Below the pieces are notes generated by a model that was not told the origin of the DNA, did not search any database, and saw only the letters and a program-made list of their open reading frames with translations. From contig QCGG01000006.1 in NCBI GenBank assembly GCA_003280055.1, forward strand, positions 1-64,000: DNA of 64,000 nt, given 5' to 3'. Positions 20,634-24,955 of the stretch are shown one piece after another; position 1 is the first letter of the stretch, and every line of letters starts with the position of its first letter. A program made the position numbers and the translations under genes. The stretch comes from Prochlorococcus sp. AG-363-P19. GTDB taxonomy: Bacteria; Cyanobacteriota; Cyanobacteriia; PCC-6307; Cyanobiaceae.

Positions 20634-21665
20634 ATGACATCTTTATCAGCTCCTTTTTCCACCATCCTTGAACATTTGATTTCAGGAAAGAATCTTTCTG
20701 AGTCACAGGCCACTGAATTAATGAAATCCTGGCTTCAGGAAGAGTTCAATCCTGTTCAGACAGGTGCGCTTCTTGCTTCGTTAAGAGCTAAAGATGTAAC
20801 TGGAGAGGAGCTTGCGGCTATGGCACGAGTTTTGCAAGCGGCTTGCCCTTTGCCTTGCGAGGCCCCTCAGATGGCCACTGTGGATACATGTGGGACTGGT
20901 GGGGATGGGGCGGATACTTTTAATATTTCCACAGCAGTTGCGTTTACAGCAGCAGCTTGCGGAGCCAATGTCGCAAAGCATGGGAATCGAAGTGCGAGTG
21001 GCAAAGTTGGCTCAGCTGATGTTCTTGAGGGTTTAGGACTTCAATTAAAAGCTCCTTTGCCAAGGGTTGTTGAAGCTTTGATTCAATCAGGGGTTACTTT
21101 TCTTTTCGCCCCTGCTTGGCACCCATCTTTGGTGAGTCTTGCTCCATTGAGGAAAAGTCTTGGTATACGAACTGTATTCAATTTATTAGGCCCATTGGTT
21201 AACCCTTTAAGACCTGCGTCACAAGTGCTTGGAGTGGCCAGAGAAGATTTATTAGATCCTATGGCAGAAGCTTTGAAAAGATTGGGGCTTAAAAGAGCGA
21301 TTGTTGTTCATGGTGCAGGTGGTCTTGATGAGGCGTCTTTATTGGGCCCTAATTCTTTACGTTTATTGGATGGTGGTGATATTAAAAAGGTGCATCTTGA
21401 CCCTATTGATTTAGGGTTAGATGTATGTTCCATGGAGGCGTTGAAGGGTGGAGATATTGAAGTTAATAAGCAAATTCTTTCCTCCATCCTTCAAGGGAGT
21501 GGTACAAACGCACAGCACAATGTTGTCGCTTTAAATACTTCTTTAGTTCTTTGGGCTGCGGGAATTGAAGATGACTTCATGAAGGGGTTGGAGGTTGCGA
21601 ACAAAGCTCTCTCAAAAGGAGAACCTTGGCTTCGTTTTAAGCAACTGCAGAAAGCACTTCTCTAG
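20634..21665 (+). CDS. trpD: Anthranilate phosphoribosyltransferase
   Basis: TrpD transfers phosphoribose from PRPP to anthranilate, the second committed step of tryptophan synthesis. The PRPP-binding signature GTGGDGADTFNIS and the KHGNRSASGKVGSADVLE segment are complete. I chose the ATG at 20634 (343 residues). An in-frame ATG at 20607 would place the start inside the terminator-like hairpin. No other trp gene is adjacent, as usual in cyanobacteria where the trp genes are scattered. carA follows after 48 bases in the same direction. Confidence 0.93.
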   Translation: MTSLSAPFSTILEHLISGKNLSESQATELMKSWLQEEFNPVQTGALLASLRAKDVTGEELAAMARVLQAACPLPCEAPQMATVDTCGTGGDGADTFNISTAVAFTAAACGANVAKHGNRSASGKVGSADVLEGLGLQLKAPLPRVVEALIQSGVTFLFAPAWHPSLVSLAPLRKSLGIRTVFNLLGPLVNPLRPASQVLGVAREDLLDPMAEALKRLGLKRAIVVHGAGGLDEASLLGPNSLRLLDGGDIKKVHLDPIDLGLDVCSMEALKGGDIEVNKQILSSILQGSGTNAQHNVVALNTSLVLWAAGIEDDFMKGLEVANKALSKGEPWLRFKQLQKALL

Positions 21666-21713
21666 GATCAAATCACAAGATCAGTTTTTTAAATAATTAG
21701 AATTTCTCCACAG

Positions 21714-22853
21714 ATGAGAGTCCCATTAAAAAAACCAGCTCTTTTACTTCTTGCTGATGGCACTTTGTTTGAAGGTAAGGCCTTTGGTCGCATTGGAACT
21801 GTTCTAGGTGAGGTGGTCTTTAATACAGGGATGACTGGCTATCAGGAGGTCTTGACTGATCCAAGTTATTCAGGACAGTTGGTGTGTTTTACATATCCAG
21901 AACTGGGGAACACAGGAGTTAATTTGGAAGATCAAGAAGCTTCTATTCCCCATGTAAAGGGTGTGGTTTCTAGAAGAATTTCTGAAATACCAAGTAATTG
22001 GAGGTCTACAGACTCACTTCAGAATTGGCTTGAATTTCATAAGGTTGTGGGAATTTGTGATATTGATACAAGAGCACTTGTTAAACACCTGAGGGAAGCA
22101 GGGGCAATGAATGGTGTGATAAGTAATAATGGCTCTACTGCTGATGAGTTGTTTGAGTTACTGAAGAAGACTCCTTTGATGGAGGGTTTGAATCTCGCCG
22201 AGAAAGTTACAACAAAAAAATCATATAAATGGGATAAAACTTGTCCGGTTGAATTTGACAAAAGATTGAAAAATTTAAATACGCGCCCCTATAAGGTTGT
22301 TGCAATTGATTTTGGTATTAAGAGGTCAATACTTAATCGCCTTGTTTCTCATGGTTGTGAGGTTGATGTTTTGCCTGCAACTGCAGATTTCCAAGATGTC
22401 ATGAAACTAGAACCAGAAGGAGTTTTCCTTTCTAATGGACCTGGGGACCCTGCTGCTGTAGACAAGGGTATTTCTCTAGCGAAAGAATTAATTAAACAAA
22501 AAGACCTTCCAGTTTTTGGTATTTGCCTTGGGCACCAAATTCTGGGCATTGCCATGGGTGGCAGTACTTTTAAGCTTCCTTATGGGCATAGAGGACTAAA
22601 TCATCCATGTGGAAAAACTGGAAGAGTTGAAATTACTAGTCAAAATCACGGCTTTGCATTAGATGCTAATTCCATCCCTAATGATTTGGTTTCGATTACC
22701 CATTTAAATCTGAACGATTCAACTGTTGCTGCGATTGCGTTTCGTGACCGACCAATTTTTGGAGTTCAATATCATCCAGAAGCCAGTCCTGGCCCGCATG
22801 ATGCTGATCATCACTTTGCTAGATTTGTAGCTCATATGGCAGAACATCGCTGA
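21714..22853 (+). CDS. carA: Carbamoyl-phosphate synthase, small (glutaminase) subunit
   Basis: CarA hydrolyses glutamine and passes ammonia to CarB to make carbamoyl phosphate for arginine and pyrimidines. The N-terminal domain has [16 protein letters not shown]. The class I glutaminase domain has the nucleophile cysteine in [12 protein letters not shown] and the His/Glu pair in [12 protein letters not shown]. At 379 residues it is complete. The carB partner is not in the window. Confidence 0.96.
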
Positions 22854-22917
22854 ACAGTGGTTTATAGCGCGCTTAATTACTACACTTCTTGCGAATGCCC
22901 TAAGGGGGATTGATCTC

Positions 22918-23283
22918 ATAACCGAATTACAACGACTAACAGTCTCACTGCGAGGTGGTTTTGAACGGAGGCAGTCCTGCCTTGTCTTTTCTTTCACTGG
23001 GCAGCTCGATGCTTACTCTGAAAAGCAATTCATTACCTATGTGGAGGATGTGCTTAGCACTAATAATTCTCCAGTAGTAATTGATTTGAGCAAAGTTGAT
23101 TTTCTTGATTCATCTGGCTTGGGAGCACTTGTTCAGACCGCGAAGCAATGCAATTCCAAAAAACGTGCATTTCAAGTAGTTGGGAATGCGCGGGTTGTTC
23201 AAACAGTAAAACTTGTTCGACTTGAGGAGTTCCTCCATCTTGTGAAGGACTTGCCCACGGCTTTGAGCCAATTAGCGGTTTGA
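22918..23283 (+). CDS. STAS-domain protein (anti-sigma factor antagonist type), apparent AUA start
   Basis: STAS proteins of the SpoIIAA/RsbV type bind and release anti-sigma kinases according to phosphorylation of a conserved serine. That serine lies in DFLDSSGLGAL at residues 61-71. The reading frame is open well before the first GTG (23041), and the conserved upstream strand SCLVFSFTGQLDAYS is needed for a whole domain. No ATG, GTG or TTG exists in frame after the last stop. The ATA at 22918 is preceded nine bases earlier by AAGGGGG (22902-22908), so I infer AUA initiation, giving 121 residues. The gene overlaps the mini-RNase III gene by four bases. Confidence 0.72.
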   Translation: MTELQRLTVSLRGGFERRQSCLVFSFTGQLDAYSEKQFITYVEDVLSTNNSPVVIDLSKVDFLDSSGLGALVQTAKQCNSKKRAFQVVGNARVVQTVKLVRLEEFLHLVKDLPTALSQLAV

Positions 23284-23681
23284 TTAATTGGCTCCGTTCA
23301 CAGCAGCCGATTGGTTGTCCTGACGATTTGGGCCCTCTTCAACTGGCTTGGTTGGGAGATTCAGTTTGGGAATTGCATCAGAGGCTTAGGCATTGCAAGA
23401 AACCAGCAAGAACAATGGACCTTCATCTTTCAGTTGTTAGTGAGGTAAAAGCAGTGGCTCAGGTTTCTGCTCTTAAACGTCTTGAAAATCATCTAAGTAA
23501 ATCTGAAAAGGATTTAGTCCGCCGGGGGCGTAATAAGGCTGGTAGAGGACCTCGAAATGGCGATCCTGCTGTTTATGGCAAGGCTACAGGGTTTGAGACA
23601 ATGATTGGATGGCTCTTTTTGAAGGATCCTGCGCGTCTTGCGCAGCTGTTAGACCAACTTGAGGAGTCAGAACCTGTTTAG
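23280..23681 (+). CDS. mrnC: Mini-ribonuclease III
   Basis: Mini-III is an RNase III catalytic domain without the double-stranded RNA-binding domain; in Bacillus and chloroplasts it trims 23S rRNA precursors. The 133 residues contain LAWLGDSVWELHQRLR with the metal-binding acid, RGRNKAGRGPRNGDPAVY, and KATGFETMIGWLFL near the C terminus. The start is a TTG that overlaps the STAS stop (TTGA). The 23S methyltransferase gene follows after 17 bases, which fits a shared role in ribosome maturation. Confidence 0.85.
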   Translation: MINWLRSQQPIGCPDDLGPLQLAWLGDSVWELHQRLRHCKKPARTMDLHLSVVSEVKAVAQVSALKRLENHLSKSEKDLVRRGRNKAGRGPRNGDPAVYGKATGFETMIGWLFLKDPARLAQLLDQLEESEPV

Positions 23682-23698
23682 GAATAGGTCTTAAATTT

Positions 23699-24955
23699 AT
23701 GAGTCAAAGATTCAAAAAACAATCGGGTAATTCACGAGGCTCTGGGCGGAAAGGGAGACCTTTAAGTGAAAAAAATGGTCCGGTTTATGAAAAAGACTCT
23801 TCGAATAGTAGGGCTTTTAAAGATGCTAAGAGTTACCAAACTAGGGAAAGAAAAGCATCTACAGGAAAACCTTCGAATGATTTTCCTAAAAGGGCTAATG
23901 ACGATCGTCGAAGATCATCTTTTCAACAACAGCAAGAACCTGTTAGAGGTAAATCAAAATCAACACCACAAAGATTCAAGAGAAAAGAGGATTCATTTCG
24001 GTTTAAAGATGAGCCCTCTCGAGGGCGTAACTCTTTTAATAGAAGACCTTCTAATAAAGCCAGGATAGATGAGAGCTCAACTTCAACAGACCAGGATTTT
24101 CGTTCTTCTCCTCAAGTTGAAATGTTTTCGGCTAGTTCAAGAGATGATCTTCTTTGGGGAAGACATTCTACTCAGGGTGCATTAGAAGCTGGCAGGCCAA
24201 TTCATCGAATTTGGTGCACCTCTGAGTTGAGAAGTGCTCCTAGATTTCTTCAGTTGCTTAAAGAGGCCAAGTCCTCAGGAGTGCTTGTAGAAGAAGTTAC
24301 CTGGGCGCGCCTTGCTCAATTGACTGGAGGTGCTGTTCATCAAGGAATTGTTCTTCAAACTGCAGCTACTCAGACTCTTGACTTGTCTAGCCTTATAAAA
24401 GGCTGTCAGAACTTGAGAGAACCTCCTCTGCTTGTAGCTTTAGATGGATTAACAGATCCTCAAAACCTAGGAGCAATAGTTCGTTCTGCAGAGGCACTTG
24501 GGGCTCATGGGATGATCATTCCTCAAAGACGAAGCGCAGGATTGACGGGTTCAGTTGCAAAGGTTGCAGCAGGAGCTCTTGAACATTTACCAGTGGCAAG
24601 GGTAGTAAACCTGAATCGGGCTTTGGAAACTCTTAAGGGAGTTGGATATCGAATTATGGGCCTGGCTGAGGAGGGGGATCAAACTCTTTCTGAAATTGAT
24701 CTTCAAGGTCCTTTGGCCGTTGTTGTCGGGTCAGAAGATAAAGGATTATCGCTTCTGACTCGTCGGCATTGTGATCAGCTTGTTCGTATTCCTTTGCGTG
24801 GAGTTACCCCTAGTTTAAATGCCTCTGTTGCTACAGCAATGTTTTTGTATGAGGTCGCTCGTAGTGGATGGATGAAGGATTTGCAAGGTCAATCACCTGC
24901 GCCCAGGATTACAAGAGCCAAGTGTTCTTTTCCTGTTGAGGATATGAACATTTAG
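23699..24955 (+). CDS. rlmB: TrmH/RlmB-family rRNA or tRNA 2'-O-methyltransferase with long basic N-terminal extension
   Basis: A SPOUT methyltransferase of the RlmB group, which methylates G2251 of 23S rRNA in E. coli. The catalytic domain begins near residue 150 (LLWGRHSTQGALEAG) and includes LDGLTDPQNLGAIVRSAEA, a GSEDKGLS segment and a final SLNASVATAMFLYE knot motif. The first 140 residues are low-complexity, rich in Arg, Ser, Lys and Gln, and have no fold. Such tails in cyanobacterial homologues may bind RNA. Mini-RNase III lies just upstream. Confidence 0.85.
   Translation: MSQRFKKQSGNSRGSGRKGRPLSEKNGPVYEKDSSNSRAFKDAKSYQTRERKASTGKPSNDFPKRANDDRRRSSFQQQQEPVRGKSKSTPQRFKRKEDSFRFKDEPSRGRNSFNRRPSNKARIDESSTSTDQDFRSSPQVEMFSASSRDDLLWGRHSTQGALEAGRPIHRIWCTSELRSAPRFLQLLKEAKSSGVLVEEVTWARLAQLTGGAVHQGIVLQTAATQTLDLSSLIKGCQNLREPPLLVALDGLTDPQNLGAIVRSAEALGAHGMIIPQRRSAGLTGSVAKVAAGALEHLPVARVVNLNRALETLKGVGYRIMGLAEEGDQTLSEIDLQGPLAVVVGSEDKGLSLLTRRHCDQLVRIPLRGVTPSLNASVATAMFLYEVARSGWMKDLQGQSPAPRITRAKCSFPVEDMNI

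Follow-up and report, generated by a model that had tools for sequence, protein, structure and literature searches.

An AUH codon as the probable translation start of the Ssr1600-type anti-sigma factor antagonist across Cyanobacteriia

To our knowledge, very few genes with near-cognate start codons have been characterised, the best known being infC and, in one genus, sigR. The infC gene of Escherichia coli starts with AUU and is subject to autoregulation by IF3. The cyanobacterial gene described here resembles it in its codon class and in the conservation of a putative near-cognate start, but it encodes a STAS protein and not IF3, which leaves no autoregulatory loop and led us to reject infC-type autoregulation. 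In sigR of Streptomyces, a GTC start is repressed by IF3, and this weak initiation holds the level of the sigma factor below that of its anti-sigma factor (PMC5472188). The two cases have much in common: a non-canonical start, a strong Shine-Dalgarno (SD) sequence, a product whose dosage is critical within a sigma/anti-sigma switch, mis-annotation and conservation. On the other hand, sigR encodes a sigma factor and uses GTC or GTT in 34 Streptomyces, whereas here an anti-anti-sigma protein appears to use AUH (AUU, AUC or AUA) class-wide, and while control by IF3 has been demonstrated for sigR (PMC5472188), we infer it for the cyanobacterial STAS gene.

The described counterpart of our gene is ssr1600 of Synechocystis sp. 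PCC 6803, whose product is an antagonist of the anti-SigC factor and is phosphorylated by Slr1861 (PMC12329169). That source gives ssr1600 a TTG initiation codon, which was changed to ATG for overexpression. The published, shorter protein is active in vitro, so the six extra residues that we propose below are not essential for kinase binding, and Western blots readily show Ssr1600, so its expression is not extremely low (PMC12329169). A STAS domain with the motif DSSGLG is also present in SpoIIAA of Bacillus and Geobacillus (structures 1th8 and 1tid), to which our protein can be matched by sequence over residues 11-81; unlike SpoIIAA, it would have about eight more N-terminal residues, and the organism and the targets are different. 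In Nostoc 7120, proteogenomics has led to the revision of eight genes that have ATA or ATT as their start (PMC8557916), and the STAS gene may be among them. We found no report of an AUH start for an ssr1600-type gene in the open-licence literature searched.

The window analysed is a stretch of 64,000 nucleotides from Prochlorococcus sp. AG-363-P19 (assembly GCA_003280055.1, contig QCGG01000006.1, positions 1 to 64,000 of the forward strand), with the following features.

22828-22830, plus strand: in-frame TAG that closes the STAS frame upstream, located within carA in a different frame, 29 codons before the ATA
22902-22908, plus strand: Shine-Dalgarno sequence AAGGGGG, nine bases 5' of the ATA
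22918-22920, plus strand: ATA, putative near-cognate start codon, placed by comparison of orthologous loci
22918-23283, plus strand: STAS gene, 121 amino acids from the ATA, ssr1600 orthologue (anti-sigma factor antagonist) according to Pfam, TIGR00377, Ssr1600 residue numbering and structure model
23041-23043, plus strand: GTG, first standard in-frame start (codon 42), product of 80 residues
23110-23115, plus strand: codons of the DSSGLG serines S65 and S66, which correspond to the phosphorylatable Ser59 and Ser60 of Ssr1600 as described in PMC12329169
23280-23681, plus strand: mini-RNase III gene (mrnC) with a TTG start, overlapping the STAS stop (TTGA); Pfam Ribonuclease_3, 78.4 bits
50556-51053, plus strand: HATPase_c_2 protein, above the Pfam cut-off, candidate anti-sigma kinase partner

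The frame at 22900-23283 on the plus strand, open down to the TGA at 23281-23283, encodes a protein with a single STAS domain according to its Pfam match (PF01740, 62.3 bits), its TIGR00377 match (60.9 bits, above the cut-off) and the structure model, and in a protein search this gene was the sole match within its own genome. An earlier note on this DNA had claimed that no standard start occurs in frame before the GTG at 23041, and the window sequence bears this out, as neither ATG, GTG nor TTG is found in the STAS frame between the upstream TAG and that GTG; its coordinates for the ATA and for the AAGGGGG nine bases 5' of it were likewise correct. It had further argued that a start at the GTG would truncate the domain to 80 residues. 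We agree: in the AlphaFold model of the AUA-start protein, such a product would lose both the strand at residues 11-18 and that at 21-30, together with about half of the helix at 35-48. The model is confident (pLDDT 94.5; mean of 85 over residues 1-10), and its use was limited to placing the truncation on the structure. No known RNA element was matched in an Rfam search of positions 21500-24500.

Orthology with Ssr1600 can be read from residue numbers. Twenty Ssr1600 residues are named in PMC12329169: L24, D25, F27, S28, R33, G43, F56, I57, D58, S59, S60, L62, G63, V66, Q67, K70, L93, V94, L96 and F99. If the ATT of one Synechocystis locus, L270, is counted as residue 1, all of them fall into place there at a constant offset of 6, and the window protein shares 16 of the 20, differing at F27, R33, G43 and I57. 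L270, L325 and L326 all end in the antibody peptide given in the same source, L270 and L325 being one place in genome G593. On the basis of this numbering and of its being the closest STAS protein of the genome, with sister Synechocystis genomes read in place of PCC 6803, we identify the window gene from its sequence as the orthologue of Ssr1600, a single-domain STAS anti-sigma factor antagonist. Only one HATPase_c_2 protein exceeds the Pfam cut-off in the window's genome, and it lies 27 kb downstream of the STAS gene; we regard it as a candidate partner kinase of the STAS protein. Under the offset of 6, the published TTG of ssr1600 becomes codon 7 (Leu7), that is, the published model starts six codons after the ATT. 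In three sister Synechocystis genomes, codon 7 reads TTG (L323), CTG (L325) and CTA (L326), and the 60 upstream bases and the ATT are identical in all three. Because codon 7 varies under an identical leader and ATT, the start given in the literature probably lies six codons too far downstream.

The start codons of orthologues, the check that the earlier note had called for, reveal a phenomenon much broader than it supposed. At the codon aligned with the ATA at 22918, ATH (ATT, ATC or ATA) is present in 190 of the 191 unique loci picked without selection on that codon; the exception is a TTG, and ATG does not occur among them. When pattern-selected loci are included, ATH is present in at least 227 of 229 unique loci (228 ATH and 1 TTG). 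The family to which the window belongs contributes 166 of these (ATC 73, ATA 69, ATT 23, TTG 1), and 63 lie outside it (ATT 55, ATC 7, ATA 1). Loci L111-L140 and most of L171-L210, which had been selected through the ATH pattern, as well as L327, L329 and L330, which came from a scan with the third base open (ATN), were left out of the 191-locus count; two loci were excluded prior to all counts, L078 for being cut at its start and L170 for being a paralogue, L297 duplicates L281, and both L167, which is anchored one codon early on a tandem ATC ATA, and L168, a pseudogene, were counted.

Larger scans agree with these counts. Matched pattern scans of 400 family genomes found ATH in 267 of them, covering 43 of 59 genera, and a scan that differed from the ATH pattern only in the third base found ATG at the aligned codon in none of the 400. 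The remaining 133 genomes, read in part, include some whose motif has diverged, as in 11 of the 12 genomes read from genus g18, and some with no match to the gene. By protein search, the STAS gene was matched in 269 of 300 family genomes, with the best 80 of 106 confirmed loci added from named Prochlorococcus, Synechococcus and relatives, and class-wide there was a match in all 242 genomes, many of which had additional weaker matches. Outside the family, all 40 places read carry ATH, as do all 22 loci (one a repeat) from further divergent groups, and the ATN scan matched 288 of 388 genomes. Among the matches listed from that scan, 148 of 149 are ATH (131 ATT, 10 ATA, 7 ATC) and one is ATG, the figure of 149 having been counted by hand as the 150 listed matches minus one chance match. 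The ATG (genome G540, locus L327) and the TTG (genome G049, loci L169/L328) stand at exactly the aligned codon, as would be expected of replacements in a start codon. A FastTree phylogeny of 234 sequences, from which this residue had been excluded, shows at least 29 changes of state at the codon; the third base thus shifts between T, C and A while hardly ever turning into G.

The onset of the coding signal coincides with the same codon. In ungapped stacks of family loci (n=166) and of loci outside the family (n=62), codon-position periodicity in information content begins exactly at ATH, with means downstream of it of 1.47/1.73/0.43 and 1.39/1.68/0.55 bits by codon position in the two sets. 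Upstream of ATH there is no codon periodicity in either set, only the SD peak at about -13 to -6 and pyrimidines at -2 (225 of 229 loci) and -1 (203 of 229). An SD-like match of at least 4 bases occurs in 228 of the 229 loci (6 bases in 91, 5 in 99 and 4 in 38), and in those 228 it is spaced 5-10 nt from ATH. Nearly all sequences (233 of 234) have E or D as residue 3. Residue 2 is of the type accepted by Met-aminopeptidase in 64 of 68 non-family sequences and 115 of 166 family ones; the 51 of 166 family sequences in which it is not a substrate count against a start at AUH. Upstream in frame, a standard start is absent from 131 of 233 loci, and 59 of the 233 have none either upstream in frame or in codons 1-16, so that the full protein could not be made from any standard start there; in 39 of those 59, a stop lies within 8 codons upstream. 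Also counting against AUH are 102 of the 233 loci, which have an in-frame upstream ATG, GTG or TTG or a frame cut by the end of the locus, though no position is conserved among them. A standard start elsewhere in orthologues, which the earlier note would have taken as a refutation, was sought, and such codons occur in some loci, upstream or downstream, again at no conserved position. That the AUH might be an internal isoleucine codon of a longer protein was ruled out by the close upstream in-frame stops and the missing upstream periodicity. An idea drawn from marine sequences, a hairpin of the SD with a CCC before the start, was also dropped since the CCC is not kept in other clades. AUH as the start codon is well supported by these comparisons, and initiation at AUA, as claimed in the earlier note, draws strong support from the conserved ATH, the SD and its spacing, the onset of periodicity, the orthologues devoid of a usable standard start and the single natural ATG and TTG replacements that fall on this very codon.

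In our judgement, the best explanation, and one we hold with considerable confidence, is that the gene is an orthologue of Ssr1600 started at AUH, and that this conserved near-cognate start would throttle the dosage-critical sigma regulator it encodes, probably by way of IF3. Ribosomes would initiate at the near-cognate AUH (AUA in the window) 5-10 bases behind the SD and produce a 121-residue protein beginning (M)TELQRLTVSLRGG, and selection would keep AUH, not AUG, throughout Cyanobacteriia. This is likely due to discrimination by IF3 against initiator tRNA mispaired with AUH, by which synthesis would be kept low and dependent on IF3 activity relative to 30S subunits, so that the antagonist would stay limiting with respect to its anti-sigma kinase. 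This would be the same logic as in sigR, with a weak start holding a regulator limiting. Features of genes discriminated by IF3 are present here, namely a conserved start other than ATG, GTG or TTG and a strong, well-placed SD, and the suggestion of the earlier note that the codon might serve control, as AUU does for infC, fits this picture by analogy. The main infC of cyanobacteria has ATG at or near its aligned N-terminus in 24 of 27 copies found by tblastn, the other three having GTG or TTG, and that of the window's own genome starts with ATG (L250); since it mostly uses ATG, the near-cognate STAS start would not be a case of classical IF3 autoregulation. A more far-reaching proposal, which we put forward tentatively and with the balance somewhat against it, is that the start codon acts as a sensor tying the SigC growth switch to translation-initiation status across cyanobacteria, with efficient synthesis of the antagonist confined to conditions of IF3 scarcity relative to 30S subunits; this wiring would have been kept since the class ancestor by excluding AUG at the STAS gene, with infC itself using AUG.

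Other readings of the start have to be weighed against these. Translation could begin at the Leu7 codon, or at another internal standard codon, with residues 1-6 not made, and the TTG described for ssr1600 (PMC12329169), which the offset places at codon 7, speaks for this, as does TTG at codon 7 in 63 of 229 loci. However, the variation of that codon between TTG, CTG and CTA in the sister Synechocystis species, under an identical 60-base leader and ATT, led us to reject a start at a codon-7 TTG; the SD would moreover be 18 bases more distant, residues 3-6 are constrained at the amino-acid level, and ATG, GTG and TTG are wholly missing from codons 1-16 in the 59 of 233 loci mentioned above, all of which makes an internal start very improbable. 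Still harder to credit is entry into the frame from an upstream ORF by frameshifting, with the purine-rich stretch as stimulator and not as ribosome binding site. An SD-like element also precedes the shift site of prfB, and in many loci an ORF in another frame does reach the AUH, but in 30 of 206 loci no standard-start ORF reaches it in any of the three frames, and coding periodicity is absent upstream; with the required ORF missing in those 30 loci, we rejected a programmed frameshift of the prfB kind.

Two further alternatives accept the AUH start and differ over what it does. It might merely fix a low translation rate for reasons of stoichiometry and be insensitive to IF3 levels as a regulatory input, and although we think this unlikely it is a contender to be taken seriously: a weak start suffices for a dosage-critical regulator, infC has ATG in most genomes examined, so that IF3 is not classically autoregulated there, and in Streptomyces, induction through the GTC codon could not be demonstrated (PMC5472188). 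Yet a fixed low rate is equally attainable with GTG, TTG or a weak SD, whereas here a strong SD is paired with the codon class that IF3 rejects. It is improbable, in our view, that the main role of the AUH is to tie translation of the STAS gene, together with that of the mini-RNase III and RlmB genes downstream of it, to the status of the ribosomes. In favour of such coupling, both of these enzymes act on 23S rRNA, and mrnC overlaps the STAS stop, the two genes meeting in TTGA in 120 of 166 family loci; outside the family, however, AUH is kept where a different gene seems to come next, judging by eye from the translations (for example, L259-L262, L267 and L284).

Class-wide, this regulator has kept AUH at the aligned codon, a single ATG and a single TTG being the departures seen. 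If the throttled, AUH-started Ssr1600 orthologue is the correct reading, then current gene models apparently cut the STAS protein short, and its production is perhaps deliberately held down. For work in Synechocystis, we would predict that six residues are missing from the gene model and that overexpression with ATG in place of the annotated TTG circumvented the natural start, along with whatever control is exerted through it. The role of initiation fidelity in the growth and carbon signalling of photosynthetic bacteria would thereby become directly testable.

A number of lineages show peculiarities of their own. The small genomes of genus g18 (L155-L167) mostly have ATC followed by ATA, that is, tandem AUH codons behind the SD. 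In genus g9, seven genomes that are 95-99% complete (G008, G063, G091, G114, G132, G148 and G163) have no match to the STAS gene, and infC of one of them, G008 (locus L239), has TTG where its relatives have ATG. G182, a small-genome relative, carries three in-frame TAG codons at glutamine positions of the STAS gene (L168); reading of TAG as glutamine was considered and rejected given that neighbouring long genes are nearly stop-free, which points to a pseudogene and not to recoding. Finally, some cyanobacteria have a divergent second IF3 homologue, and sequence suggests that this paralogue could possibly be AUC-initiated: an SD followed by ATC is found in all three copies read (L254 in G410, L255 in G400 and L256 in G406), with no standard start nearby in L254 and L255 and a TTG five codons before the ATC in L256.
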